From Clytia hemisphaerica (Eukaryota > Cnidaria > Hydrozoa > Leptothecata > Clytiidae), in assembly GCA_902728285.1 (NCBI GenBank), contig CACVBU010001018.1:127372-191371 (forward strand): a DNA stretch of 64,000 bases. Direction: 5' to 3'. Positions 2,733 through 64,000 of this stretch are shown piece by piece. The position numbers were made by a program, and so were the translations under genes. The notes under the pieces were generated by a model, which saw only the letters and a list, made by a program, of their open reading frames with translations, was not told the DNA's origin and searched no databases. Position 1 is the stretch's first letter, and each line of letters opens with the position of its first letter.

Positions 2733-3033
2733 CACTGGGCGAAATCATAGATTTCTAATGTAGGAAATATATAGGAAATCTAACATTTTCTATATATTTC
2801 ATACGTTTTGAAAGACCAAATTTCCTACGAAATGTAAAGATGGAGATTTCCTATTCAGACATTTCCTGACACATGGAATTATCATATTTACTAACTTTAC
2901 ATATAATAGAATTTCAAGTTTAGAAGTTTTCAACAAGGGAAATATTACATTTACTAACTTTCCATGGAATGTAATGTCAAGTTTAAAACATTTCCCAAAG
3001 GAAAATATTCATAATTATTATCTTTACACAATA

Positions 3034-3184
3034 GTAGGCCCGACTCGTAACAAATTTCATAAAAATCGTGCAAATTTGGAACAAAGCACCAAATTTGGAC
3101 CAGATGCTCTTTATACCCTATAGATTGATATTAGAAGGGTAACCCAAGATAATTCCAAAGGTTACCCTCTAATTAGGGCTAATA
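3034..3184 (+). repeat. Left terminal inverted repeat of the inner element
   Basis: Matches 7541-7680 in inverse orientation. The distal 10 bp and the inner 116 bp are conserved; about 25 bp between them differ. Confidence 0.85.
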
Positions 3185-3616
3185 AGTGTAATTAGCCCCA
3201 ATTAAGGCCGGAATCACGTTTTACTTAGTTGTTGATCTACAAAGCGGGTATTTCTCAAACTTTTAGCCACATACGAGACGGGGTATGGTACCAAGTCATT
3301 ATAAGGTGAAATTTGAGTTTTTAATGGTAGCTAATTAGCATTAATTAGCCTAATTAGGCTTAATTTGAAGCTAATTAAGTGAAAATCTTTATTTTCTATA
3401 CATTAGCTCTAAAATTCAACTGAATTTTTTTAATGGGTATAATAAGGTATCAGATCTAATTAGACGAAGATTCGATATTTTGGGAATTGAAAATATAGTC
3501 AAAATAATATATAGTTGAAAATATAGCTTCAAATATCATTGAATCTCCAAAATTGAGACAGCAGTGCAGGTGAGAAGAACAAGTCAAGCAGAGAAGAACA
3601 AGTCAAGAAGGAAACA

Positions 3617-6600
3617 GTGACGAGTCAAATCTTACCAGTATTCATCGAAGAAGCTGCAACACCCTCAATGGTGAAACATTGCCTGACCGTTATCTTGAAG
3701 TGCCATGAATATACGAATCCTGGTGAAGTCCCATGGGTTACAGCTGACCAACCTTTGCATGCACTTTTAAAGACAATTCAATGGCGCTTTCCTGAAACCC
3801 ATGGTGAAGATAAACTGTTTGGCGTCACGTGTGCGCTACATATCGAGAAAGCAGCGTGGACGTGTGTTGGACAAGTCGAAGACTGATCTGGGACTATCAG
3901 TTTCATGGCTGATGTCGACATCTCTACAATTGGTGTTGCCGAATCCTGTCTTCATTGCTCACACATATCTCGTAGTCGCTACCTTAATACTGTTGGCGCT
4001 TGTGTTCACTGCATGCTGTTGTGTGATGCTTATCAAGAATACAAGGACCAGTTACCCAATGGTTCGGAACCGATCGATATGTTCAAATAGCGTGAAGAGC
4101 AGAAAAGCCCAATGTTTCGCTACCACTACCTATTGCTAAAACTAAAAAACTTTTAGTTTTACAGTTTGTGAGGTCAGTCAGAAGCGGTGACCAGAGTCTT
4201 TACCTCACCAGTCTAACGAAGATAGCATTTTTTTTTTTGCGTTAAATCATGTTCACTATTCAAAATGGACTCCAGTACATATACGTCATATGCTGCTCCT
4301 ACTGGAAACCCATCCAGAAATCCATCACCATTTCGAGCAAGGTCGGCTTACAATCAACAAAACTGGAAGGCGTTTCTCCAACATCGGCCTGGATCGTGGA
4401 CAAGAGCAGAAAATTAAAAGGTTCAAAGAACATGGTGGCCCGTTACCGTTTACGCATTCACCATATTAGCTTCTTCTGTATTTGGTAGCAGGTCCTGAAG
4501 TTATTAATCAGGTCGCATTCTTCCAGAGCTTAATGTCACCGGTAGCTTGTAACACTGTATGTCACCACGAGCAAACAAAAGGCATACCAAAACAAGTTCA
4601 TCGAACACACGAAATCTCTCTATTCTAAATATTTAGAAGTTGCCAATATCTTTACGGACAAATCAAATGTATTGTTCGATTTATCAACTGATCAAGTAAA
4701 GCCACCTACTTAGACTAGTAAACTAGTCGGTTATTACTTATAATTACTTATAATAAAACTGTCAATAAAATAATGTAAACACTAATTAAATATTCAGCGC
4801 GCGTGAGAGAAAAGGAAAATAACTGACTAGAAGCTTCTTCCAACACCTTTTTTTCTTCACCTAAAATCGTAAGGAGAGACATACAGATTTCTGTATGTCT
4901 GACCCGGGCGGGATTGTATTTATTTTTCTTTCTGTTTATTGCGTTTTTAGAAATGCTCATTTATTTATATGTTCCCATGTTCAATGTTACTATGAAATAT
5001 CATTTAGTCAAAAAAGTTGGATGGATTCTCAAAAACCTAAAAAAGGTTGTAAAATTAAACAACGTTTTTTGAGGGAAGAAGCTTCTAGTCGTTGAAATTC
5101 AGAAAAGGCAAGCAACCTCACCTCTTCGATTCTTTTTATTTGGAGCTTGAATTTTTTGTATATGGGTCTGTTTTCAACGACTAGTTTACTAGTCTACCAC
5201 CTACTACGATCGACTCAATCATGTCTTTAGAGTCTCGCGGTAAGGAACAGTACGAAACCTTTGTCAAGGACAGGCTTGTCGAGCAGTAAGTCGATAATAT
5301 ATTCGTCTGTTAACTTATTCTCTATTCCCGATCTATTAAACCTACATTCGGCTATGCCAGGCCGAGTAAGACCTTCATAACGTGTTTGTTATTGATTGAT
5401 TAATCAATTTTGTGAATATTCTTTTGCGTTGTTCAATATCTTAGATCTGTTCCCATTACCGAGAAAATCCCGAAGAACAAACTGAGTCTCATGAAAGAGA
5501 TAAAGAAAGCTAAATCGAAAGCCCAAGATGTCAAAGACCCGAAGAACCTTGCAGCCGTCTTATCGCAACTCTACGTGGCCAGCCAAGTGCGTGGTGCAGA
5601 TCCAACGGAATTCTTCTCTCATGAAAACGTGCCAAATCCACCTTCAATTTCAAAAGATGGTCAGTTGTATCATGAGACAAAGTCCGATCTTGCCGAAGTA
5701 CTCGGCGGTGGCTTATCTTCAGAATGTTTAGCATCCCAGCAACCTACATCCGATGCTGTTGTTTTAGATGGTCCAGCCATAATCCACATGGTAGCACCTA
5801 AAAATGGGTCTACTGTTGACGAGTACTCCAAAGTCTTTGCAACTCATGTCAATTCGTATTTTAATGATGTAAACATAGTCGATGTTATCTTTGATATTTA
5901 TCTAGATTCAAGTCTTAAAGAAGGTGTGCGAGAAACCCGTGGTACTGCCCCTTCTCAGATCGTCAAAGGTACCACTAAAATTTCGAAATGGTCAAGGTTC
6001 TTGAAGAATGGTTCAATTAAGCAACGCCTTTTTGAATACATTGCCCATTATCTTAAATCTCAGGTGACTCCATCTAATAATAAGCAACTTATCGTTACGT
6101 GTCGTGACATGGTGATAACAAACCCAATTTCCAAATTTTATTACCGTGTGACCATGAAGAAGCCGACACTCGTATGATACTGCACGCGAGTGATATCCTT
6201 GAAGATGTGTCATCGGTCACCTTAAGAACAGTTGATACAGATGTGTTGGTTCTTGATATAGCTTTATCTAACATGTACCCAACGAAAAAGATCTGGGTCA
6301 GCTTTGCGTCGGTGATTAAAAGAAAATGTTTTCGGCACATGAAATCCGCATTCAATTTGGTCCGGAGAAAGCCCAGGCACTGCCAATGTTCCATGCTTTC
6401 ACAGGCTGCGACACGGTGTCCTCATTTAAAAATGTCGGCAAGAAAACAGCATGGGAAAGGTGGACATCGTTTAATGGTGTTACTGACGCTTTTCTACAAT
6501 TGACAGAATCACCAGACGACCTGTACGATGAAACAACTGCTAACGAGTATCAATCTTCTACGCAAAGAACTCTTTAAACGAAGTCGCTTAATTGAAAAGA

Positions 6601-6954
6601 TTCCACCCACTTCAGGAGCATTAGTTCAACACAATCGACGTACAACCTTACAGGGAGGACATTGCTGAGGTAAATCATCCTAGAACAAGATGAATCTTCC
6701 ACCTGTCACAGAAAGGGGATGGCTGGACAATAAGCAACCTCTATGGACAGTTGACCCAAGATGGTATTTTTAAATGCAGCGGTCCTTGTGGATGCAAAAG
6801 GTCGCAGCAAAATTGTACGGACTTGTGTAAGTATAAAGGCAGATGTAAATGGTGGGAAGATAATGACGAAGAGAGTTCTGACGACGATGAAGATGATGGA
6901 TCGGCCGAGCCCCAAGCTATTGAAAATGAAGACTTGGAAGAATATTCGAATTAA
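3617..6954 (+). pseudogene. Decayed transposon-borne gene: DTD / HAFTGCDT / Cys-rich C-terminal family
   Basis: Conserved blocks occur in order on one strand but in shifting frames. They are FIEEAATPSMVKHC and ADQPLHALLKTIQW (3640-3790), LHIEKAAW (near 3840), ALNHVHYSKWTPVHIR (from 4241), CHHEQTKG (near 4565), HEEADTR then RTVDTDVLVL (6153-6255), FHAFTGCDTVSSF and GKKTAW (6390-6460), IPPTSGALVQH (near 6605), and a Cys-rich tail with CSGPCGCKRS (6770-6860). The acidic C-terminus ends at 6954. I recall this protein as a multicopy uncharacterised family in cnidarians and molluscs; the TVDTD plus GCDT pair resembles a PIN/FEN-like nuclease core, which is inference. An intron fits 5286-5444 (GTAAGT to TTAG). 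Breaks: stops at 3884 and 4088, frame changes near 4140, 4480, 4610, 6150 and 6325, a stop near 6575, and the MITE at 4711-5196. The N-terminus is not recognised. Confidence 0.8.
4711..5196. mobile_element. Mutator-like MITE with 9-bp target duplication
   Basis: A perfect 19-bp inverted repeat, TAGACTAGTAAACTAGTCG, opens at 4711 and closes at 5196. The 9-bp CCACCTACT is duplicated at 4702-4710 and 5197-5205. Removing the element and one duplicate restores continuous reading in the gene it interrupts, which confirms the boundaries. A second inverted pair (4825-4841 and 5074-5090) and a perfect hairpin (4878-4899) lie inside. A 9-bp duplication suggests the Mutator group. No transposase is encoded. 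Confidence 0.88.
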
Positions 6955-7540
6955 ACACTCTCAGATTTTGTTATATTTTATCACTTAATTATGTGGCACT
7001 TTAGATTATTATTTTATTTCCAAATATGAGATTTTACTTCAAGATAGTTTATAGTTTTTAATTAGGCAATTGTTTGATTAGCGGATAGTTTTTACTTGAA
7101 TACTTATAATCAAGCGTCGAGACTTCGATCTAACCAACATTGTGTCACGTTTAAAGTTAAATTTATTTTTCCTCCGTTTGAGTTTCATGAGAAAATTGTC
7201 TAATTAAGGGGTAATTAAGGTTGAATATTATGTTAATTAAGAGAGTGTATTTCATATTTATTATTTCGATTTTCACTTTTGTCAACATTTGATACAAAAG
7301 GAAGTTTATCGTAAATAAAATCGAGTTCGTTGTTTCAAATTACTTGAATATGGAAATATCGTTTAATTAGCTACAAATTAGCTTTAATTGAGCATAATTA
7401 GGCTAAATTATTAGTTCCAACAGTGCTTATTGTTTCCTGGAATCATTTGCAAGGTCTTTGCAAAAGATTTAAGCTGGTTTTAAACAAAATAGTCAGTTGA
7501 AAAACGTGAATCTCGTCTTAATTAGCACTAATTGGACTTA

Positions 7541-7680
7541 ATTAGCCCTAATTAGAGGGTAACCTTTGGAATTATCTTGGGTTACCCTTCTAATATCAAT
7601 CTATAGGGTATAAGGAGCATCTGGTCCAAATTTGGTGCTTTGTTCCAAATTTGCACAATTTTAACGCCAATCGGGCCTAC
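7541..7680 (-). repeat. Right terminal inverted repeat of the inner element
   Basis: Inverse copy of 3034-3184, ending in TCGGGCCTAC at 7680. Confidence 0.85.
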
Positions 7681-8219
7681 AAGGATGAAACATTAAGTTT
7701 AAAAGATTTCCAAATTGCAAATGTTAAGTTTCGATGTATCAAAATAGAGCTAAAAAGGAAGGAAGACACAAATGTTACTTTTTAGTTTACATTTCATTTT
7801 ACTGATCTATTTCATCTTTAGAAGAACTAAAAATTCATATTAAATAAGATAAAGTAAATTTAATATTTAGATAATATAAATTACAAGGTAAAAAAATACA
7901 GAAAAAATACAAATGCTGTGTATACAATGTATGAGGGTAAAAACTTAAGAGTATTAGTCAAATAAGTTAAACTTTGGTCAAACTTTCTTTATTAAAATTC
8001 CAAGATCAGTATCCTATTTCAAGCAACTTTTAGCTCTTGAAACAAACACTCAAAACATCAAAGAAATCAGTAACCGTCACTTGCCAAATAACTCGATTTC
8101 AGGATCATAAGTCAATCAGCTTTCTCAAAGATCGTGTCAGTTCATGGTGTTCCCTGAAGAAAAATTGAAAATCGATAATAATATGGTCAAACTATCAAAA
8201 GTAAAAATATGAAATTAAC
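7681..8219. other. Right arm of the outer element, no gene
   Basis: AT-rich DNA. The first 60 bp (AAGTTTAAAAGATTTCC motifs) resemble the arm sequence just left of 3034, as expected if the inner element split one arm. No gene seen. Confidence 0.5.
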
Positions 8220-17401: not shown

Positions 17402-19197
17402 ATGGCTGGTGTGGAAGTTGGACAAGAGTTGGAATGTTGCGTTTGTTTGGATCAATTTGTAAAACCAAAGCTTTTGGATTGTATGCACACTTTATGTGAG
17501 GGATGTATCGACAAACTGATTCAGAGTGGAACTGTGAAATGCCCTGAATGTCGAGAAGAAACCAAGGTTTGTTTCAATATTTTACTGATCTTACTGAATA
17601 TTACTTTTAACTGCTTTTACCGCTTCTCTAAGATCAATCATAAAACATCACTGGTGTCTGTGATCGATACAGTGCAGTCAGAATAATACACCTATCAACC
17701 TTAAACAGCAAGGTCATTAGGGACTGGTAATAAATTTACAGAAAATTATTCTTTTTCAACACTTTGCATTTTCAAGCGATATCTTCAAACGAAAGCAGCA
17801 CAGAAGCTTATTCTAGCAAAAACTTTATTCTCGCTGAGGGAATCTTTGCGGTGGAGCGCAAACAATTTCTAGCTGTTCCTGCGTTTGAATTGAGCCATTC
17901 GCTTATAGATTGACATCAAAATGATGATATAAAAATTATAAAAGATGTGCACATAGAAGGTGTCGTCAGTGTTTTTTTGAGCTCTATGTTTAAGCGATTG
18001 AAATAACAACCAATAGATTTAAATAGACTAATTAAGAAAATTGCTTCTAGACAGGACAATTAGTATAAATCACTAAGGATCAGTACTCTTACTACTACTG
18101 TAACTTTGCAATTTTTATAAGTCTCCTCTCAAGCTTGCCGCGTCGCTTAACTGTTTATAGATGTATATAGATTACTTATATATGTTATAGGTCCCTAATG
18201 GTGCAGCTGAGCTATCTACCAATTATATTGCACAAAATATTATCGAAAAAGTGAAAATGCTGCAAAGAAAGGCCCATTCTGTCAAGATTGTGTCGCCGAG
18301 TCTCCTGCTTCAAACCATTGCGAAACTTGTGTTTTGAGTTTATGTAAAAAATGCACTGAATATCATCAGAGTTGTGTTCGCTTTGTTGGTCATAAAATTA
18401 TTGACATACAAAATGTCACGAAAAAAATTTCTAGTCCGAAGCGTTACTGTCCGAAACATAATGAGCTGTTGAAATATTTTTGTAAGCAATGCAAGGTTGT
18501 CGTATGTAATGATTGTTGTATGATAAGTGCACAACATAAAAATCATGATATTACATTGGTGTCGGAAGCTATCGACACAGCCAAAGAAGAATTAAATCAA
18601 AAGCTCAAGAAGATGAGTGAGAGTGAGTTAACAATGGTTCAATGCCTTGGAAAAGTCAAAGAAATTCACCAAAAAGTTGCTGCAGAAGAGGAAAACAATG
18701 CTAATATGATCAAACAAGCTTTTGATGAAATAAGAGTTGTTCTTGCCAAGAAGGAAGAAGAACTGGTGAAACAGCTTCCAACAATTAAAGCAGACGAAAA
18801 GGAGAAGCTTAAATTTGACAGATTTTCAACAGCAACCAGCAAAGTTTCCCAATCTGTACAATACGTTGAATCTATCCTGAATGAAAATTGTGATGATCTA
18901 GATATCATATGTGATCTCACAAAACAATTGGATGAAATCTGCAAGGAATACAGTTTGAATGGTACGTTTATTGTATCTTCTACACCTCTACCTTTATATT
19001 TGCAACTGAAAGGAAAATCAACGAACCCACCTCTTCTGATCCTCAAGAGTAAGGCAATGTTAACACTGTATCATAAAAATGCGCTCTCAGGAAGTTCGCT
19101 GGGCTTTGATATGGGCTTCGAAAAGCATTCACTCAATCCTAGAAGGGATGCATTGATAATGATATCTGAGCAAATAGGAACCTTTTCATTATCATAA
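17402..19197 (+). CDS. TRIM-like RING / B-box 1 / B-box 2 / coiled-coil protein, one-base frame break
   Basis: Probably a RING-type E3 ubiquitin ligase. Exon 1 (17402-17566, phase 0) is a C3HC4 RING with metal ligands C12, C15, C27, H29, C32, C35, C47 and C50. The intron is 17567-18190 (GTTTGT to TTATAG). Exon 2 (18191-19197) encodes B-box 1 (FCQDC, HCETC, LCKKC), B-box 2 (YCPKHNELLKYFCKQC, CNDCC, HKNHD) and a Glu/Lys-rich coiled coil from about TAKEELNQKLKKM, then a short C-terminus without SPRY or NHL. Exon 2 begins in one frame but the B-boxes lie in another. The tandem copy has GTGAAAAATG where this has GTGAAAATG (near 18251-18259), so one A is missing. That is either a null allele/pseudogene or a sequencing error in an A-run. 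ATG 17402 follows an acceptor. Confidence 0.8.
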
Positions 19198-25447: not shown

Positions 25448-26395
25448 ATCAGAGAGCGAAGATTACACACCTGTCTCAGTGACCCGGTGGCTTTTTTTGA
25501 AATTCACCGGAGATGAAGTATTCTTTTAAAAATCCAGAGGCAGTTACATCAAAATGTCTCGAAAATGTCAATATGAAAATTGCGAAATCAGAGAACATAT
25601 GTCTCGCTCATTATAAAAAGGCCGAGACAAAATTTCAATAATTGGATTGTAACATCGAGTTAAGTCTCTTTTGTTAAGTCACCAGGGGGTAAATAAAACA
25701 GACCTTGATACATTTATCGTTCGTTTCAACTTGACGATTCGTTTAAAACTCAGCCTCCTAAATATTTGGGGTAGGTAAAATATGTACAAAGAAATTCATA
25801 CTTTTCCAACCCGGCCAATCTTTAAAAAAGAAGCGAACAATAAAATATAATTACCCTTTCCAAATAAACCTCTTCGGTGGCGAGTGTAGTCTACTCTGAC
25901 GTAATTGTAAAATTTATGTGATGGGAGTTTGACATAGTAATGTAATGTTGTTTGGGGAATTATGAAGTTCTCTGGAATTTCGATTGCATTTATTCCGGTT
26001 GATTTTTCATGACTTCTAATGGTACTTTTTCTAACGAGTTTGATTACTCTGTTCTCACACTTATGTCTTTTTTTTTCGCGTCCTTTTCCGTGATTACTTT
26101 TATTTATATTTTTAAAGACAGGTAAGAAGGCATATTGATGTAACTGAGAGGGTATTTTTCATAGACATAATTTTTACACGTTTTTTTATACCATTAAAAA
26201 AAAATGTTGTAATTCATGATGAAATTGGCCAAAATAATGATAAATATGCTTTTACGAAAACCACCATCCGGGAATTCAGGAACAGAACCTAGACAAGCTC
26301 CTTTTTTAGAAGATCTTTAACTGCCAATTACCAATTATACCCAGTAAGGCTCAAACGCCATTTTATGCTTCAGGTTTGGGTCGATTTTACTCGGA
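25448..26395. other. Gene-free stretch with a lone MITE end
   Basis: 25464-25515 repeats the ACACCTGTCTCAGTGACC terminus of the neighbouring family without a nearby partner. The rest is AT-rich with no supported feature. Confidence 0.5.
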
Positions 26396-28130
26396 ATTTT
26401 GCTATATTTTACTATCACATGCGATTGACGATTAAGTTTCACATAAAGATCAATGGAGACTGATAAAAGAGAGTTGTTTTCAGAATGTCGAAGCAAATGA
26501 AGTTTAACTGAGCTCGATGTATGGATAACCTCTTTTCTTCATTGATAATGTATTAACTCGGTCTTATGTCAGTCATAGCTTTCCTCGATTTCTTTACTCG
26601 ATTATATTTGATAAGTGTGTAAGTGTATCTTTATTCGAATTTACTCGATTTTTGCCGATTTTATTCGCAATTTTACTTCTTTCGACTTTCACATGCGATT
26701 GATGATTAAGTTTCACATAAAGATCAATGGAGGCTGATAAAAGAGAGTTGTTTTCAGAATGTCGGAGCAAATGAAGTTTAACTGAGCTCGATGTATGGAT
26801 AACCACTTTTCTTCATTGATATTGTGTTAACTCGATTTTATGTCAATCGTAGTCTTCCTTGATTTATTTACTCGATTATATTTGGTAAGTGTGTAAGTAT
26901 TTTTGTTCGATTTTACTCGATTTTATCGATTTTATTCGGAATTTACTACTCTTCACTTTCTGATGCGATTGACGATTAAGTTTCACATAAAGAACAATGG
27001 AGGCTGATAAAAGAGAATTGTTTTCAGAATGTCGAAACAAATGAAATTTAACTGAGCTCGATGTATGGATAACCTCTTTTCTTCATTGATATTGTGTTAA
27101 CTCGATCTTATGCCAATCGCAGTCCTCCTCGATTTATTTCCTCGATTATATTTTTTGGGTTGTAAATTTTTTCTTCGCCTTTACTCGATTTTCTCGATTT
27201 TATTCGCAATTTTATTACCTTTGACATTCTGATGCGATTGACGATTAAGTCTCACATGAAGATCAATGGGGGCTGATAAAAGAGAGCTGTTTTCAGAATG
27301 TCGAAGCAAATGAAGTTTAACTGAGCTCGATGTATGGATAACCTCTTTTCTTCATTGATATTGTGTTAACTCGATCTTATGTCAATCGTAGTCTTCCTTG
27401 ATTTATTAACTCGATTATATTTGGTAACTGCGTAAGTGTTTTCGTTCGATTTAACTCGATTTTCTCGATTTTATTCGGAATTTACTACTCTTCACTTTCA
27501 CGTGCGATTGATGATTAAGTTTCACATAAAGATCAATGGAGGCTGATAAAAGAGAGTTGTTTTCAGAATGTCGAAGCAAATGAAGTTTAACTGAGCTCGA
27601 TGTATGGATAACCTCTTTTCTTCATTGATATTGTGTTAACTCGATCTTATGTCATTCGTAGTCTTCCTTGATTTATTAACTCGATTATATTTGGTAACTG
27701 CGTAAGTGTTTTTGTTCGATTTAACTCGATTTTCTCGATTTTATTCGGAATTTACTACTCTTCACTTTCACATGCGATTGATGATTAAGTTTCACATAAA
27801 GATCAATGGAGGCTGATAAAAGAGAGTTGTTTTCAGAATGTCGAAGCAGATGAAGTTTAACTGAGCTCGATGTATGGATAACCTCTTTTCTTCATTGATA
27901 TTGTGTTAACTCGATCTTATGTCATTCGTGTTTACTCAATTATATTTGGTAAGTGTGTAAGTATTATAATTCGATTTTACTCGATTTTATCGATTTAATT
28001 CGGAATTTTACCTTTGACTTTTTCCTGAATCGACTATGTCATTCGTAGTTTTCCTCGATTTATTTACTCGATTAGATTGACTGAATGCATTAGTGTGTTT
28101 CTCGATTTTTGTCAATTTTTGTCGATTTTA
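26396..28130. repeat. 270-bp tandem satellite, about six units
   Basis: GCGATTGACGATTAAGTTTC starts units at about 26421, 26695, 26965, 27234, 27504 and 27774; spacing is 269-274 bp. Each unit has a conserved half (CACATAAAGATCAATGGAGG to GAGCTCGATGTATGG) and a variable half rich in TACTCGATTTT. The last unit is shortened and decays by about 28130. No coding potential. Confidence 0.93.
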
Positions 28131-40317: not shown

Positions 40318-42110
40318 TAACGCTCTGGACACAAGGTGACTTTGACTCACTTCTTCGAGAGGCAAGAACCATCGATTTTGAAGAAAAACTGTATGAAGAC
40401 CAGCGCTGAATCGAATTCAAAAAGATTTGCAAAGTCTATCTTATCTGGAAATGTGAAGGCAGCCTTACGATTGCTAGATGTTGAATCTTCGAAGGGTGTG
40501 CTGAATCTAACCAACTCCACGCTTCAAGGTCCCGGTGTCCGTCCGATTGGTATTGGAGAAGTTCTACGAAGAATAGTAGGGAAAGTCGTCATCAACACCA
40601 TTGAACCGGACATTCTCAACAGTGCAGGTTCCCTACAATTGTGTGCAGGACTACCAGCAGGCAGTGAAGCAGCAGTACATAGCATGAAAGATATCTTTGA
40701 GGAGCAAGAAACTGATGCAATACTCATCATTGATGCAGAAAACGCATTCAATTCACTGAATCGAAAAGCATTGCTTCACATCATCAAGTATATCTGCCCA
40801 CCGATGTCGACGTACGTGAAGAATTGCTACCGTACTGCATCAAGATTATTCATTTCGGGCAGCAATCAAGAAATCTTGTCTGCAGAAGGCACAACACAAG
40901 GCGACCCATTAGCTATGCCATCCTATGCTATAGGAGTTGTTCCGATGCTCCCACTCATCGTAGACAAAAGTGATACCAAACAAGCAGCTTTCGCAGACGA
41001 TCTTTATGGTGCTGGTTCTCTTCCCAGTCTTCAGAAATGGTGGGCCAAGATTGAACAAACAGGTCCATTGTTTGGATACTTTCCAAAGGCTTCCAAATCA
41101 TGGTTGGTGGTGAAAGACGAAAAGCTGGAGGAACCCAAAGTGATGTTTGCAGACACCAATCTAAAGATCACCTCATCGGGTAGAAGATATCTGGGAGGCT
41201 TCATCGACAATCAAGAAGGGATTCATGCATACAAGAGAGAACTGGTCGAGAAATAGATTTCTGAAATAAACATCTTGTCAGAGATTGCAAAAGCTGAACC
41301 TCAAGCAGTGTATTCTTGCTTCACACATGGGTGGGTACACAAACTCAACTACTTCTTACGAGTTATCCCTGACTTCACAAACAAATTGAAGTTGCTAGAC
41401 CAAATCATCAACCAAAATTTGCTGCCTACGATGTTCGGGAAAAATTTAACTGAAAATGAGCGTAAGCTACTAAGCCTTTCACCAAAACTTGGAGGTTTAG
41501 GACTGCCGATATTCTCAGTCGCGTGCGTTCATGAATACGACAATTCAAGAAGTTTAACATCACAAAGCATCCAAAACATCCACCACCAAAAGCACGACTT
41601 TGATGTTAACTCAGAGGAATGTAAAGATATGGAAAAACAAGAGCTCACAGGCGAGCAATTGAGTTACAAGCGACGAGGCAAGACTCGACTTGAGTGTTCG
41701 ATGTTGTTGGCAACGCGGAGAACGTGCATTCTTTGACGTAAGGATTTTCAATCCATTTGCTCACGTTAACAGGGACCTAGACAAAGTCTTTCGAGCCAAC
41801 GAAAAAGAGAAGAAGAGAAGTTATGGAAGACGGGTAGTCGAAGTTGAGCACGGCTTATTCCCACCCCTAGTTTTTACTCCATATGGAGGTTTTGGGCACG
41901 AAACTTCAAAAGCCATTACAGTGCTTATAAATAAACTCTCTGAAAAAAGAGACATTGAAAGATCCACAATGGGTAAACGCAAAGTTGTCGTTCGAATTAC
42001 TGAGATCAGCAATCCTCTGTTTACGGGGATCCCGAAACGATAAAAGAGCATTATTACAACAAAATGAAATTGACAACATTGAAATTTTTATGAAAAAAAA
42101 TAGGAACACA
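40318..42110 (+). pseudogene. Reverse transcriptase remnant with nuclease-like C-terminus (unnamed non-LTR-type family)
   Basis: N-terminal block GDFDSLLREARTIDFEE (from about 40338), then RT motifs RPIGIGEVLRR (40531), IIDAENAFNSLNR (40727), EGTTQGDPLAMPSYA (40877) and the catalytic AFADD (40985), then KASKSWLVV and LGGFI. The thumb-like NERKLLSLSPKLGGLGLPIF region follows at 41456-41515. AFFDVRIFNPFA and YGRRVVEVEHG (41727-41850) look like a PD-(D/E)XK-type nuclease region, and LLRSAILCLRGS closes it (about 42000). The family is one I recall as multicopy in corals and other invertebrates. Breaks: frame changes near 40360-40400, a deletion between SSKGVLNL and GPGVRPIG, TAG at 41254-41256, frame changes near 41670 and 41970. 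Ends unknown; possibly 5' truncated. Clade not assigned. Confidence 0.82.
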
Positions 42111-53120: not shown

Positions 53121-56100
53121 ACTGAAACAGTCTTCAAATAAGTATTTCTTTACCACAAAAACAAGCAAATAAAGAATTTCTTATCGATAAAAACAAGCAA
53201 ACAAAGAAATGGAAATATTCAACTAACATGGCCATATCAGTTAGACGCAACCGATATGGACACTGACATGTCATCCATCTCAGAGTGACTTCAATGAATG
53301 TTATTTAACTGAAACATTCTTCCAAATGGTATTTCTTTTCAATAAAAACAAGCAAACAAAGATTAGCAAACATTAAACTAAAATGGCCATATCGGTTAGA
53401 CGCAACCGATATGGACGCTGCAATTTCATTATCCGTTAAGTGACATCAGTGAATGTAATTTAACTAAAACATTGTTCCAATAAGTATTTCCTTTCAATAA
53501 AAACAAGCAAACAAAGATTTGGAAACATTAAACTAAAATGGCCAAATCAGTTAGACGCAACTGATATGTACACTGACATGTGTTCCAGCTCAGAGTGACT
53601 TTAATGAATGTTATTTAACTGAAATATTCTTCCAAAAGGTATTTCTTTTCAATAGAAACAAGTAAACAAAGATTTAGAAAAATTAAACTAAAATGAGCAT
53701 ATCGGTTAGACGCAACTGATATGTACACCGGCATGTCTTCCTGACCAGAGAGACTTCAATGAATGTAATTTATCTGGAACATTCTTCCAAATGGTATTTC
53801 TTTTCAATAAAAACAAGCAAACAAAGATTAGCAAACATTAAACTAAAATGGCCATATCGGTTAGACGCAACCGATATGGACGCTGCAATTTCATTATCCG
53901 TTAAGTGACATCAGTGAATGTAATTTAACTAAAACATTGTTCCAATAAGTATTTCCTTTCAATAAAAGCAAGCAAACAAAGATTTGGAAACATTAAACTA
54001 AAATGGCCAACTCAGTTAGACTTAACTGATATGTACACTGACATGTGTTCCAGCTCAGAGTGACTTTAATGAATGTAATTTAACTGAAACATTCTTCTAA
54101 TAAGTATTTCTTTACCACAAAAACAAGCAAATAAAGAATTTCTTCTCCATAAAAACAAGCAAACAAAGATTTGGAAACATTCAACTAATATGGCCATATC
54201 AGTTAGACGCAACCGATATGGACACTGGCACGTCATCCATCTCAGAGTGACTTCAATGAATGTTATTTAACTGAAACATTCTTCCAAAAGGTATTTCTTT
54301 TCAATAAAAACAAGCAAACAAAGATTTAGAAACATTAAACTAAAATGAGCATATCGGTTAGACGTAACTGATATGTACACTGGCATGTCTTCCAGCCCAG
54401 AGTGACTTCAATGAATGTAATTTATCTGAAACATTCTTCCAAATGGTATTTCTTTTCAATAAAAACAAGCAAACAAAGATTAGCAAACATTAAACTAAAA
54501 TGGCCATATCGGTTAGACGCAACCGATATGGACACTGCAATTTCATTCTCCGTTAAGTGACATCAGTGAATGTAATTTAACTGAAACATTGTTCCAATAA
54601 GTATTTCCTTTCAATAAAAACAAGCAAACAAAGATTTGGAAACATTCAACTAATATGGCCATATCAGTTAGACGCAACCAATATGGACACTGGCACGTCA
54701 TCCATCTCAGAGTGACTTCAATGAATGTTATTTAACTGAAACATTCTTCCAAAAGTTATTTCTTTTCAATAAAAACAAGCAAACAAAGATTTGGAAACAT
54801 TAAACTAAAATGACCATATCAGTTAGACGCAACTGATATGTAAACTGACATGTCTTCAAGCTCAGAGTGACTTCAATGAATGTAATAATTTAACTGAAAC
54901 ATTCTTCCAATAAGTATTTCTTTACCACAAAAACAAGCAAATAAAGAATTTCTTCTCCATAAAAACAAGCAAACAAAGATTTGAAAACATTCAACTAATA
55001 TGGCCATATCGGTTAGACGAAACCGATATGGACACTGGCATGTCATCCATCTCAGAGTGAATTCAATGAATGTTATTTAACTGAAACATTCTTCCAAAAG
55101 GTATTTCTTTTCAATAGAAACTAGCAAACAAAGATTTAGAAAAATTAAACTAAAATGAGCATATCGGTTAGACGCAACTGATATGTACACCGGCATGTCT
55201 TCCTGACCAGAGTGACTTCAATGAATGTAATTTATCTGAAACATTCTTCCAAATGGTATTTCTTTTCAATAAAAACAAGCAAACAAAGATTAGCAAACAT
55301 TAAACTAAAATGGCCATATCGGTTAGACGCAACCGATATGGACACTGCAATTTCATTCTCCGTTAAGTGACATCAGTGAATGTAATTTAACTAAAACATT
55401 GTTCCAATAAGTATTTCCTTTCAATAAAAGCAAGCAAACAAAGATTTGGAAACATTAAACTAAAATGGCCAAATCAGTTAGACGCAACTGATATGTACAC
55501 TGACATGTGTTCCAGCTCAGAGTGACTTTAATGAATGTAATTTAACTGAAACATTCTTCTAATAAGTATTTCTTTACCACAAAAACAAGCAAATAAAGAA
55601 TTTCTTCTCCATAAAAACAAGCAAACAAAGATTTGGAAACATTCAACTAATATGGCCATATCAGTTAGACGCAACCGATATGGACACTGGCACGTCATCC
55701 ATCTCAGAGTGACTTCAATGAATGTTATTTAACTGAAACATTCTTCCAAAAGGTATTTCCTTTCAATAAAAACAAGCAAACAAAGACTTAAAAACATGAA
55801 AAACATGAAACTAAAATGGCCATATCGGTTAGACACAACCGATATGGACACGGGCACGTCATCCATCTCAGAGTGACTTCACTGAATGTATTTAACTAAA
55901 CATTCTTCTTCTAATGGTGTTTTTTTCAATAAAACAGCAAAACAAAAGAATTAAAAACTTGAAACTAAAATGGCCATATCAGTTAGACGCAACCGATATG
56001 GACAAGGGCACGTCATCCATCTCAGAGTGACTTCAATGAATGTTATTTAACTGAAACATTCTTCCAAATGGTATTTCTTTTCAATAAAAACAAGCAAACA

Positions 56101-59100
56101 AAGATTTAGAAAAATTAAACTAAAATGGCCATATCGGTTAGACGCAACCGATATGGACACTGGCATTTCATCCTCCTCTAAGTGACTTCAGTGAATGTAG
56201 TTTAACTGAAACATTCTTCCAGTAATTATTTCTTTTCTATAAAAACAAGCAAACAAAGATTATGAAACATTAAACTAAAATTGCCATATCGGTTAAACGC
56301 AACCGATATGGACACTGCAATTTCATTCTCCTTTAAGTGACATCAGTGAATGTAATTTAACTGAAACATTCTTCCAATAAGTATTTCTTTTCAATAGAAA
56401 CAAGCAAACAAAGATTTAGAAAAATTATACTAAAATGAGCATATCGGTTAGACGCAACTGATATGTACACCGGCATGTCTTCCTGACCAGAGTGACTTCA
56501 ATGAATGTAATTTATCTGAAACATTCTTCTAATAAGTATTTCTTTACCACAAAAACAAGCAAATAAAGAATTTCTTCTCCATAAAAACAAGCAAACAAAG
56601 ATTTGGAAACATACAACTAATATGGCCATATCAGTTAGACGCAACCGATATGGACACTGGCACGTCATCCATCTCAGAGTGACTTCAATGAATGTTATTT
56701 AACTGAAACATTCTTCCAAATGGTATTTCTTTTCAATAAAAACAAGCAAACAAAGACTTAAAAACATGAAAAACATGAAACTAAAATGGCCATATCGGTT
56801 AGACACAACCGGTATGGACACGGGCACGTCATCCATCTCAGAGTGACTTCACTGAATGTTATTTAACTAAAACATTCTTCTAAATGGTGTTTTTTTTCAA
56901 TAAAAACAAGCGAACAAAGAATTAAAAACTTGAAACTAAAATGGCCATATCAGTTAGACGCAACCGATATGGACACGGGCACGTCATCCATCTCAGAGTG
57001 ACTTCAATGAATGTTATTTAACTGAAACATTCTTCCAAATGGTATTTCTTTTCAATAAAAACAAGCAAACAAAGATTTAGAAAAATTAAACTAAAATGGC
57101 CATATCGGTTAGACGCAACCGATATGGACACTGGCATTTCATCCTCCTCTAAGTGACTTCAGTGAATGTAGTTTAACTGAAACATTCTTCCAGTAATTAT
57201 TTCTTTTCTATAAAAACAAGCAAACAAAGATTAGGAAGCATTAAACTAAAATGGCCATATCGGTTAGACGCAACCGATATGGACACTGCAATTTCATTCT
57301 CCTTTAAGTGACATCAGTGAATGTAATTTAACTGAAACATTCTTCCAATAAGTATTTCTTTTCAATAGAAACAAGCAAACAAAGATTTAGAAAAATTAAA
57401 CTAAAATGAGCATATCGGTTAGACGCAACTGTATGTACACCGGCATGTCTTCCTGACCAGAGTGACTTCAATGAATGTAATTTATCTGAAACATTTTTCC
57501 AAATGGTATTTCTTTTCAATAAAAACAAGCAAACAAAGATTAGCAAACATTAAACTAAAATGGCCATTAAGGTTAGAAGCAACCGATATGGACACTGCAA
57601 TTTCATTCTCCGTTAAGTGACATCAGTGAATGTAATTTAACTAGAACATTGTTCCAATAAGTATTTCCTTTCAATAAAAGCAAGCAAACAAAGATTTGGA
57701 AACATTAAACTAAAATGGCCAAATCAGTTAGACGCAACTGATATGTACACTGACATGTGTTCCAGCTCAGAGTGACTTTAATGAATGTTATTTAACTTAA
57801 ACATTCTTCCAAAAGGTATTTCTTTTCAATAGAAACAAGCAAACAAAGATTTAGAAAAATTAAACTAAAATGAGCATATCGGTTAGACGCAACTGATATG
57901 TACACTGGCATGTCTTCCTGACCAGAGTGACTTCAATGAATGTAATTTATCTGAAACATTCTTCCAAATGGTATTTCTTTTCAATAAAAACAAGCAAATA
58001 AAGATTAGCAAACATTAAACTAAAATGGCCATATCGGTTAGACGCAACCGATATGGACACTGCAATTTCATTCTCCGTTAAGTGACATCAGTGAATGTAA
58101 TTTAAATAAAACATTGTTCCAATAAGTATTTCCTTTCAATAAAAGCAAGCAAAGAAAGATTTGGAAACATTAAACTAAAATGGCCAAATCAGTTAGACGC
58201 AACTGATATGTACACTGACATGTGTTCCAGCTCAGAGTGACTTTAATGAATGTAATTTAACTGAAACATTCTTCTAATAAGTATTTCTTTACCACAAAAA
58301 CAAGCAAATAAAGAATTTCTTCTCCATAAAAACAAGCAAACAAAGATTTGGAAACATTCAACTAATATGGACATATCAGTTAGACGCAACCAATATGGAC
58401 ACTGGCACGTCATCCATTTCAGAGTGACTTTAATGAATGTTATTTAACTGAAACATTCTTCCAAAGAGTATTTCTTTTCAACAAAAACAAGCAAATAAAG
58501 ACTTAAAAACATGAAAAACATGAAACTAAAATGGCCATATCGGTTAGACACAACCGGTATGGACATGGGCACGTCATCCATCTCAGAGTGACTTCACTGA
58601 ATGTTATTTAACTGAAACATTCTTCCAAATGGTGTTTTTTTTTCAATAAAAACAAGCAAACAAAGACTTAAAAACTTGAAACTAAAATGGCCATATCAGT
58701 TAGACGCAACCGGTATGGACAAGGGCACGTCATCCATCTCAGAGTGACTTCAATGAATGTTATTTAACTGAAACATTCTTCCAAATGGTATTTCTTTTCA
58801 ATAAAAACAAGCACACAAAGATTTAGAAAAATTAAACTAAAATGGCCATATCGGTTAGACGCAACCGATATGGACACTGGCATTTCATCCTCCTCTAAGT
58901 GACTTCAGTGAATGTAGTTTAACTGAAACATTCTTCCAGTAATTATTTCTTTTCTATAAAAACAAGCAAACAAAGATTAGGAAACATTAAACTAAAATGG
59001 CCATATCGGTTAGACGCAACCGATATGGACACTGCAATTTCATTCTCCTTTAAGTGACATCAGTGAATGTAATTTAACTGAAACATTCTTCCAATAAGTA

Positions 59101-62100
59101 TTTCTTTTCAATAGAAACAAGCAAACAAAGATTTAGAAAAATTAAACTAAAATGAGCATATCGGTTAGACGCAACTGATATGTACACCGGCATGTCTTCC
59201 TGACCAGAGTGACTTCAATGAATGTAATTTATCTGAAACATTCTTCCAAATGGTATTTCTTTTCAATAAAAACAAGCAAACAAAGATTTAGAAAAATTAA
59301 ACTAAAATGGCCATATCGGTTAGACGCAACCGATATGGACACTGGCATTTCATCCTCCTCTAAGTGACTTCAGTGAATGTAGTTTAACTGAAACATTCTT
59401 CCAGTAATTATTTCTTTTCTATAAAAACAAGCAAACAAAGATTATGAAACATTAAACTAAAATGGCCATATCGGTTAAACGCAACCGATATGGACACTGC
59501 AATTTCATTCTCCTTTAAGTGACATCAGTGAATGTAATTTAACTGAAACATTCTTCCAATAAGTATTTCTTTTCAATAGAAACAAGCAAACAAAGATTTA
59601 GAAAAATTATACTAAAATGAGCATATCGGTTAGACGCAACTGATATGTACACCGGCATGTCTTCCTGACCAGAGTGACTTCAATGAATGTAATTTATCTG
59701 AAACATTCTTCCAAATGGTATTTCTTTTCAATAAAAACAAGCAAACAAAGATTAGCAAACATTAAACTAAAATGGCCATATCGGTTAGACGCAACCGATA
59801 TGGACACTGCAATTTCATTCTCCGTTAAGTGACATCAGTGAATGTAATTTAACTAAAACATTGTTCCAATAAGTATTTCCTTTCAATAAAAGCAAGCAAA
59901 CAAAGATTTGGAAACATTAAACTAAAATGGCCAAATCAGTTAGACGCAACTGATATGTACACTGACATGTGTTCCAGCTCAGAGTGACTTTAATGAATGT
60001 AATTTAACTGAAACATTCTTCTAATAAGTATTTCTTTACCACAAAAACAAGCAAATAAAGAATTTCTTCTCCATAAAAACAAGCAAACAAAGATTTGGAA
60101 ACATTCAACTAATATGGACATATCAGTTAGACGCAACCGATATGGACACTGGCACGTCATCCATCTCAGAGTGACTTTAATGAATGTTATTTAACTGAAA
60201 CATTCTTCCAAAAGGTATTTCTTTTCAACAAAAACAAGCAAATAAAGACTTAAAAACATGAAAAACATGAAACTAAAATGGCCATATCAGTTAGACACAA
60301 CCGGTATAGACATGGGCACGTCATCCATCTCAGAGTGACTTCACTGAATGTTATTTAACTGAAACATTCTTCCAAATGGTATTTTTTTCAATAAAAACAA
60401 GCAAACAAAGACTTAAAAACTTGAAACTAAAATGGCCATATCAGTTAGACGCAACCGATATGGACAAGGGCACATCATCCATCTCAGAGTGACTTCAATG
60501 AATGTTATTTAACTGAAACATTCTTCCAAATGGTATTTCTTTTCAATAAAAACAAGCAAACAAAGGTTTAGAAAAATTAAACTAAAATGGCCATATCGGT
60601 TAGACGCAACCGATATGGACACTGGCATTTCATCCTCCTCTAAGTGACTTCAGTGAATGTAGTTTAACTGAAACATTCTTCCAGTAATTATTTCTTTTCT
60701 ATAAAAACAAGCAAACAAAGATTAGGAAACATTAAACTAAAATGGCCATATCGGTTAGACGCAACCGATATGGACACTGCAATTTCATTCTCCTTTAAGT
60801 GACATCAGTGAATGTAATTTAACTGAAACATTCTTCCAATAAGTATTTCTTTTCAATAGAAACAAGCAAACAAAGATTTAGAAAAATTAAACTAAAATGG
60901 CCATATCGGTTAGACGCAACCGATATGGACACTGGCATTTCATCCTCCTCTAAGTGACTTCAGTGAATGTAGTTTAACTGAAACATTCTTCCAATAAGTA
61001 TTTCCTTTCAATAAAAGCAAGCAAACAAAGATTTGGAAACATTAAACTAAAATGGCCAAATCAGTTAGACGCAACTGATATGTACACTGAATTGTGTTCC
61101 AGCTCAGAGTGACTTTAATGAATGTTATTTAACTTAAACATTCTTCCAAAAGGTATTTCTTTTCAATAGAAACAAGCAAACAAAGATTTAGAAAAATTAA
61201 ACTAAAATTAGCATATCGGTTAGACGCAACCGATATGGACACTGGCATTTCATCCTCCTCTAAGTGACTTCAGTGAATGTAGTTTAACTGAAACATTCTT
61301 CCAGTAATTATTTCTTTTCTATAAAAACAAGCAAACAAAGATTATGAAACATTAAACTAAAATGGCCATATCGGTTAAACGCAACCGATATGGACACTGC
61401 AATTTCATTCTCCTTTAAGTGACATCAGTGAATGTAATTTAACTGAAACATTCTTCCAATAAGTATTTCTTTTCAATAGAAACAAGCAAACAAAGATTTA
61501 GAAAAATTATACTAAAATGAGCATATCGGTTAGACGCAACTGATATGTACACCGGCATGTCTTCCTGACCAGAGTGACTTCAATGAATGTAATTTATCTG
61601 AAACATTCTTCCAAATGGTATTTCTTTTCAATAAAAACAAGCAAACAAAGATTAGCAAACATTAAACTAAAATGGCCATATCGGTTAGAAGCAACCGATA
61701 TGGACACTGCAATTTCATTCTCAGTTAAGTGACATCAGTGAATGTAATTTAACTAGAACATTGTTCCAATAAGTATTTCCTTTCAATAAAAACAAGCAAA
61801 CAAAGATTTGGAAACATTAAACTAAAATGGCCAAATCAGTTAGACGCAACTGATATGTACACTGACATGTGTTCCAGCTCAGAGTGACTTTAATGAATGT
61901 AATTTAACTGAAACATTCTTCTAATAAGTATTTCTTTACCACAAAAACAAGCAAATAAAGAATTTCTTCTCCATAAAAACAAGCAAACAAAGATTTGGAA
62001 ACATTCAACTAATATGGCCATATCAGTTAGACGCAACCGATATGGACACTGGCACGTCATCCATCTCAGAGTGACTTTAATGAATGTTATTTAACTGAAA

Positions 62101-64000
62101 CATTCTTCCAAAAGGTATTTCTTTTCAACAAAAACAAGCAAATAAAGACTTAAAAACATGAAAAACATGAAACTAAAATGGCCATATCAGTTAGACACAA
62201 CCGGTATAGACATGGGCACGTCATCCATCTCAGAGTGACTTCACTGAATGTTATTTAACTGAAACATTCTTCCAAATGGTGTTTTTTTTCAATAAAAACA
62301 AGCAAACAAAGACTTAAAAACTTGAAACTAAAATGGCCATATCAGTTAGACGCAACCGATATGGACAAGGGCACATCATCCATCTCAGAGTGACTTCAAT
62401 GAATGTTATTTAACTGAAACATTCTTCCAAATGGTATTTCTTTCAATAAAAACAAGCAAACAAAGATTTAGAAAAATTAAACTAAAATGGCCATATCGGT
62501 TAGACGCAACCGATATGGACACTGGCATTTCATCCTCCTCTAAGTGACTTCAGTGAATGTAGTTTAACTGAAACATTCTTCCAGTAATTATTTCTTTTCT
62601 ATAAAAACAAGCAAACAAAGATTAGGAAACATTAAACTAAAATGGCCATATCGGTTAGACGCAACCGATATGGACACTGCAATTTCATTCTCCTTTAAGT
62701 GACATCAGTGAATGTAATTTAACTGAAACATTCTTCCAATAAGTATTTCTTTTCAATAGAAACAAGCAAACAAAGATTTAGAAAAATTAAACTAAAATGG
62801 CCATATCGGTTAGACGCAACCGATATGGACACTGGCATTTCATCCTCCTCTAAGTGACTTCAGTGAATGTAGTTTAACTGAAACATTCTTCCAATAAGTA
62901 TTTCCTTTCAATAAAAGCAAGCAAACAAAGATTTGGAAACATTAAACTAAAATGGCCAAATCAGTTAGACGCAACTGATATGTACACTGAATTGTGTTCC
63001 AGCTCAGAGTGACTTTAATGAATGTTATTTAACTTAAACATTCTTCCAAAAGGTATTTCTTTTCAATAGAAACAAGCAAACAAAGATTTAGAAAAATTAA
63101 ACTAAAATGAGCATATCGGTTAGACGCAACTGATATGCACACCGGCATGTCTTCCTGACCAGAGTGACTTCAATGAATGTAATTTATCTGAAACATTCTT
63201 CCAAATGGTATTTCTTTTCAATAAAAACAAGCAAACAAAGATTAGCAAACATTAAACTAAAATGGCCATATCGGTTAGACGCAACCGATATGGACACTGC
63301 AATTTCATTCTCCGTTAAGTGACATCAGTGAATGTAATTTAACTAAAACATTGTTCCAATAAGTATTTCCTTTCAATAAAAGCAAGCAAACAAAGATTTG
63401 GAAACATTAAACTAAAATGGCCAAATCAGTTAGACGCAACTGATATGTACACTGAATTGTGTTCCAGCTCAGAGTGACTTTAATGAATGTTATTTAACTT
63501 AAACATTCTTCCAAAAGGTATTTCTTTTCAATAGAAACAAGGAAACAAAGATTTAGAAAAATTAAACTAAAATGAGCATATCGGTTAGACGCAACTGATA
63601 TGTACACCGGCATGTCTTCCTGACCAGAGTGACTTCAATGAATGTAATTTATCTGAAACATTCTTCCAAATAGTATTTCTTTTCAATAAAAACAAGCAAA
63701 CAAAGATTAGCAAACATTAAACAAAAATTGCCATATCGGTTAGACGCAACCGATATGGACACTGCAATTTTATTCTCCGTTAAGTGACATCAGTTAATGT
63801 AATTTAACTGAAACATTGTTCCAATAAGTAATTCCTTTCAATAAAAACAAGCAAACAAAGATTAGGAAACATTAAACTAAAATGGCCGAATCAGTTAGAA
63901 GCAACTGATATGTAAACTGGCATGTCTTCCATCTCAGAGTGACTTCAATGAATGTTATTTAACTGAAACATTCTTCCAAATGGTATTTTTTTTTCAATAA
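53121..64000. repeat. Hairpin satellite, about 68 monomers of about 155 bp, runs off the window
   Basis: Monomers (145-190 bp) carry, in order, CCATATCGGTT-AGACGC-AACCGATATGG (11-bp stem, 6-nt loop), a variable spacer, GTGACTTCAATGAATG, a second hairpin GAATGTT-ATTTAACTGA-AACATTC, GGTATTTCTTTTCAATAAAA, ACAAGCAAACAAAGATT and AAACTAAAATGG. Sequence variants recur in fixed order. One variant (hairpins at 54193, 55001, 55654, 56630, 58370, 60117, 62017) often has an extra stretch of about 35 bp with a duplicated ACAAGCAAAT/CAAAG motif. No coding frame. Size and organisation fit centromeric or heterochromatic satellite, but location is unknown. Confidence 0.95.

Follow-up and report, generated by a model that had tools for sequence, protein, structure and literature searches.

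An inverted-repeat element with a decayed gene

We analyzed a 64,000-nucleotide (nt) stretch of the Clytia hemisphaerica genome (contig CACVBU010001018.1, positions 127,372 to 191,371 of the forward strand), called the window here, whose positions are used throughout. A preliminary description of this DNA had placed at 3034-7680 a mobile element bounded by near-identical inverted repeats of about 116 bp, carrying a single decayed gene with ordered blocks and one intron, and had proposed it as a candidate new DNA transposon group. Self-comparison of the window identified inverted-repeat arms of 122 nt at 3062-3183 and 7541-7662 that were 98% complementary, bearing out the claim of near identity. 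The outer ~30 nt of the terminal inverted repeats (TIRs) were less similar, save for the terminal TAGTAGGCCCGA and TTGTAGGCCCGA. Comparison with the empty site described below moved the boundaries of the element to 3032-7679. The left TIR, on the plus strand, thus occupies 3032-3183 and starts with TAGTAGGCCCGA, and the right TIR, on the minus strand, occupies 7541-7679, its end being short of the TAGTAG start by one TAG unit. Inside the TIRs, TAATTAG-rich subterminal DNA is repeated on both sides as weaker inverted pairs (I2, I3, and I5), as the symmetry reported earlier had implied.

The gene lies on the plus strand, with its conserved blocks in order, spread over three frames and interrupted by stop codons. 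An exon 1 remnant (3584-4710), containing stops and frameshifts, corresponds to codons 589-963 of exon 1 (990 codons in all) in an intact copy elsewhere in the genome, L031, and includes a DUF6589-like transposase region. It is followed by a nested element with its duplications (4702-5205) and by the end of exon 1 (5197-5285), whose first 9 bases belong to the duplication that the nested element made, forming its second copy. An intron of the GT..AG type (5286-5444; GTAAGT...TTAG), also present in L031, separates this from exon 2, which runs to the stop (5445-6954), changes frame, and encodes a FEN/XPG-like nuclease domain and a Cys-rich tail. The ordered blocks, the decay, and the intron were described correctly. 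About 60% of the full gene, its 3' part, is left in the window copy, which aligns to L031 exon 1 from codon 589 and is missing the first ~588 codons; the nested element had gone unreported. That nested element is 486 bp long (4711-5196), has 19-bp TIRs (TAGACTAGTAAACTAGTCG), and is flanked on each side by the 9-bp duplication CCACCTACT; it is MULE-like (Mutator-like element) or AcademH-like by duplication length only.

Copies of the element across the genome

We searched the 417-Mb assembly (951 contigs) with the left TIR and obtained at least 42 matches, both arms counted. Twenty regions with TIR matches were examined, four of which (L031 to L034) also matched the gene. Counting the window, there are five copies with the gene, all of them bounded by TIRs on both sides and alike in layout, at unrelated flanks. 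Further fragments of the same family were found at C781 (86% identity) and C735 (74% and 55%).

L031 measures 6.3 kb from TIR to TIR and has an altered left TIR end. Its exon 1 is open for 990 codons from an ATG, and after a GT..AG intron its exon 2 is open for ~540 codons to the stop. The predicted protein of ~1,530 residues consists of an N-terminal Cys/His-bearing region, a DUF6589-like transposase core, a FEN/XPG-like nuclease, and a Cys-rich tail. When L031 was compared with the four decayed copies, the ratio of nonsynonymous to synonymous differences (pN/pS) was below 1 in all eight comparisons (0.36 to 0.88), a depletion that is expected if the decayed copies stem from functional ones.

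The preliminary description would be contradicted by the same TIRs around unrelated contents, and in part the data go that way: six of the 11 elements with paired ends had no gene match, but these were short (222 to 1,434 bp) and look like non-autonomous derivatives. Such elements, and the C781 and C735 fragments if they have no TIRs, are what might be expected if a host gene had been captured between the TIRs of an unrelated non-autonomous element. We consider such a capture highly improbable, given that TIRs and the same layout accompany all five gene copies examined, that in L031 an open gene lies in an element running from one TIR to the other, and that the relatives of the gene form a family dispersed in the genome, with at least 86 matches.

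Target-site duplications and an empty site

We then looked for target-site duplications in the 11 paired elements, a count that left out the one-ended loci (L035 to L039, L045, and L047 to L049) and L041, which has the same flanks as L040. With the boundary set at TAGTAGGCCCGA, an exact 3-bp duplication was present in five of the 11, against 0.73 expected from flank shuffling; only 3 of 20,000 shuffles reached five. Of the alternatives tried in length and offset, the sole one to score as high (six elements) was a 2-bp TA, which is part of the TIR.

The window copy could be compared with its unoccupied target. In a genome search, the joined window flanks matched 29 places, 24 of which ran through the junction uninterrupted. 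Six of these 24 empty sites were read; four had the sequence TTTACACAAGGATG, and L068 and L070 were each one base off, the difference in L070 falling within CAA. The filled site in the window reads TTTACACAA, the element, and then CAAGGATG. The window duplication is therefore CAA, at 3029-3031 on the left and 7680-7682 on the right, and the right end of the element is one TAG unit short. The host site is itself a dispersed repeat (window 2912-3031 and 7686-7802), of which the genome holds at least 24 copies without the interruption. A search of the genome for an empty site at L033 returned only that locus's own flanks. Common TIRs, 3-bp duplications, and an empty site together uphold the claim that the element is mobile.

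The probable nuclease domain

The preliminary description had guessed that the DTD and GCDT blocks form a PIN/FEN-like acidic core. We aligned eight nuclease relatives (alignment A1, residues numbered as in P0002) and found D159, K167, R171, R174, E251, E252, D254, D277, D279, and D336 to be invariant in all eight. On the plus strand of the window, the first nuclease Asp codon (5767-5769, in LDG) is replaced by Glu in L054. It is followed by the invariant Asp codon of the FDxY..S.K...R..R block (5893-5895), which aligns with EXO1 D78; the HEEADTR block (6153-6173), in which E, E, A, D, and T are invariant in 8/8; the DTD block (6234-6242), with both Asp residues invariant in 8/8; and the GCD of FTGCDTVSSF..GK (6404-6412), whose Asp is invariant in 8/8 and aligns with EXO1 D225. 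The Cys-rich tail (6775-6846) weakly resembled Tesmin/TSO1 CXC in two of the eight members (best E value, 0.045).

A PDB search with a single sequence gave no match. With the A1 profile and E values up to 10 allowed, the same database returned only four chains, all of them EXO1, at E values of 0.6 to 0.9 that are not significant alone; A1 lay on EXO1 in register, with D159 on D78 and D336 on D225. An earlier hhalign comparison of the untrimmed region with FEN1 alone had scored 23.2 (E value, 0.05). Comparison of the trimmed nuclease with a profile of four archaeal FEN1 sequences plus EXO1 scored 36.0 (E value, 5.3e-4; probability, 31%) over 58 columns around GCD, compared with an average of 14.9 and a maximum of 22.2 for 100 column-shuffled templates and 13.6 for an unrelated profile. 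A further stretch, collinear with the first and located at the FDxY block, was weak alone (E value, 0.37). The acidic blocks follow one another (D, D..K..R, E-x-D, D-x-D, GCD) as they do in FEN1, EXO1, and XPG, and the GCD..G.GK segment is likewise shared. The element differs from these enzymes in having its nuclease fused to a transposase, in the absence of a Pfam XPG match, and in a first Asp that is not invariant. On the basis of the EXO1 register and the profile-profile match, the domain is likely a FEN/XPG-like nuclease, and the guess was likely right.

For neither the window pieces nor the L031 protein did Pfam or NCBIfam return a match above cut-off. Among the Pfam matches listed for the other A1 members, none was above cut-off, the best (E value, 0.0092) being to an unrelated model of an unstructured region. 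No relatives were found in phage records at E values up to 0.1 or in pattern-limited scans of viral contigs and prokaryote genomes. In the C. hemisphaerica genome, at least 86 matches to the nuclease part were listed (79 of 414 candidates scored), mostly at 28 to 47% identity and many with long open frames. The preliminary description had called the protein family abundant in cnidarian and mollusc gene sets; the abundance measured here is that in this one genome. One 40% relative, L054, is joined by four other copies that start at its position 2452, and matches to it stop at 2451 (C898 and C340) or 2456 (C782), which suggests a sharp left end. Self-comparison of the L054 flanks detected no TIR.

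The upstream region and DUF6589

With the L031 exon 1 protein as the query (P0001), Pfam matched DUF6589 at an E value of 1.9e-4, and L054 matched it at 0.004, both falling short of the curated cut-off. Five aligned upstream sequences had in common the motifs DQP, GxLHIE, HxHY.RW, and EQ.xK, which may belong to a DDE core of the RNase H-like kind. A profile of the upstream region scored 34.4 (E value, 0.0014; probability, 17%) against three DUF6589 proteins (L051 to L053), compared with a maximum of 24.3 for 100 shuffles and 12.7 for an unrelated profile. The earlier statement that the protein is not a DDE transposase can hold for the nuclease half only.

Two of the DUF6589 loci, L052 (3318-5195 and 9067-9900) and L053 (3932-5770 and 8699-9901), encode a DUF6589 protein that adjoins a helicase on the opposite strand (Helicase_C; E value, ~1e-13); the L053 helicase also matched RecQ_Zn_bind, below its cut-off. 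Both are AcademH candidates. L051, considered as a nuclease-bearing DUF6589 relative, was rejected, having no match to P0001 or P0002 better than an E value of 0.10.

A P0001-like region lies upstream of the nuclease, on the same strand, in at least 17 of the 72 nuclease clusters listed, 5 belonging to this family and 12 to others. The remaining 55 listed clusters may have no such neighbor listed by reason of distance, of search scope, or of real absence. They could also be taken to mean that the FEN/PIN-like domain is itself the transposase of a new transposon superfamily, a reading consistent with the good conservation of the nuclease, the failure of the nuclease part to match Pfam at cut-off, and the absence of any listed DUF6589 match near a nuclease match. 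We judge it decidedly improbable. The upstream region of the full-length protein shares motifs over five aligned sequences and is distantly homologous to DUF6589, it precedes the nuclease in the 17 or more clusters just mentioned, and no enzyme of the FEN family is known to join strands.

Probable relationship to Academ transposons

The nuclease of AcademX transposons is of the XPG type. AcademX is a lineage of the Academ superfamily, treated in Repbase and, as cited in PMC10045372, by Kojima in 2020. One passage in the literature characterizes AcademX by a nuclease and duplications of 3 or 4 bp and AcademH by a helicase and duplications of 9 or 10 bp (PMC10045372); a literature search for AcademX returned nothing beyond that passage, and PMC10799480 and PMC9587614 contributed no decisive point. 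The element described here agrees with AcademX in its nuclease (by similarity only), its 3-bp duplication, and its TIRs, and no separating feature was found in this comparison by description. It disagrees with AcademH, as no helicase was among the Pfam matches of the L031 protein and the duplication is 3 bp. The AcademH-like loci L052 and L053 have the DUF6589-like transposase region in common with the element, whose nuclease is fused to it, whereas theirs is accompanied by the opposite-strand helicase. Academ elements have also been amplified in bivalves, where, according to a passage in PMC10294476, 100 curated families have a mean length of 5,565 bp, near the intact 6.3 kb of the element.

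We assign the element to AcademX because its nuclease and 3-bp duplication match the passage on that lineage (PMC10045372) and because DUF6589 loci in the same genome adjoin a helicase. Probably, then, it is what remains of an autonomous element, a cut-and-paste DNA transposon belonging to the AcademX type of the Academ superfamily, as judged from the description of that type. The suggestion of a new transposon group is not supported, given that the upstream part of the protein, which the window copy lacks, is a distant homologue of DUF6589 proteins and that two DUF6589 loci adjoin a helicase, which recalls the nuclease/helicase pair of AcademX and AcademH. What is added to the known AcademX-type transposons is most likely a further member, not a new kind.

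Several points weigh against this assignment. The case for membership in Academ is made from similarity to DUF6589, the length of the duplication, and the presence of a nuclease, by description rather than by comparison with a named Academ sequence. The similarities to FEN1/EXO1 and to DUF6589 are weak and local, and the first nuclease Asp varies. The identification of DUF6589 with the Academ transposase is drawn from the helicase linkage, and the literature search found no paper naming DUF6589. No pair made up of one of the 105 listed DUF6589 matches and one of the 86 listed nuclease matches is closer than 17 kb, and the transposase at the nuclease loci is therefore a distant DUF6589 relative at best; for 55 of the 72 listed nuclease clusters, the listing has no P0001-like neighbor. 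Finally, 6 of the 11 paired elements (the window copy, L031, L033, L044, L046, and L050) have no exact 3-bp duplication when the same boundary is applied to all. The distance of the DUF6589 similarity (E values at the 1e-3 level) and its separation from the nuclease loci would also fit a relative in Academ that falls outside both AcademX and AcademH and represents a third lineage, one that acquired its nuclease on its own. We regard such a lineage as improbable, the combination of a 3-bp duplication and a nuclease being the pair stated for AcademX in the passage cited above (PMC10045372).

A large gene family of this genome that Pfam does not recognize gains a likely function: its members would be transposase-nuclease genes, to be masked rather than included among the host genes. 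With an open copy next to dead ones, the part played by a transposon-borne flap nuclease can also be put to the test.

A possible role for the nuclease at junctions

In the mechanism that we propose, the transposase core would bind the TIRs, cut the element out, and join its 3' ends to a target staggered by 3 bp. The FEN-like domain would take away the non-transferred strand, or 5' flaps, where the element meets donor or target DNA, and the short TIR-only elements would be moved in trans.

Three gene-bearing copies that have no exact duplication (the window copy, L031, and L033) each have one junction that can be read as 3 nt short, the missing bases being the terminal TA of the TIR plus one adjacent base. 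The window junction, for which the empty site is known, is equally readable as a lost TAG unit; at L031 and L033 the 3-nt shortfall is tentative. It is conceivable, though on balance unlikely, that the fused FEN-like nuclease acts at insertion or excision junctions and that the 3-nt-short junctions are a trace of trimming by the element's own flap nuclease and not of later decay. If so, the large family in this genome would consist of transposons carrying their own junction-processing enzyme.

Other features of the window

Rfam and tRNA scans of the window gave no match. One open frame, at 18211-19194, has a B-box zinc finger (E value, 3e-12), and another with a reverse transcriptase domain lies at 40321-41253 (E value, 9e-10). 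There are two tandem arrays, one at 26381-28008 with a period of 270 and 6.1 copies and a large one at 53171-64000 with periods of 155, 310, and 465 that reaches the end of the window.

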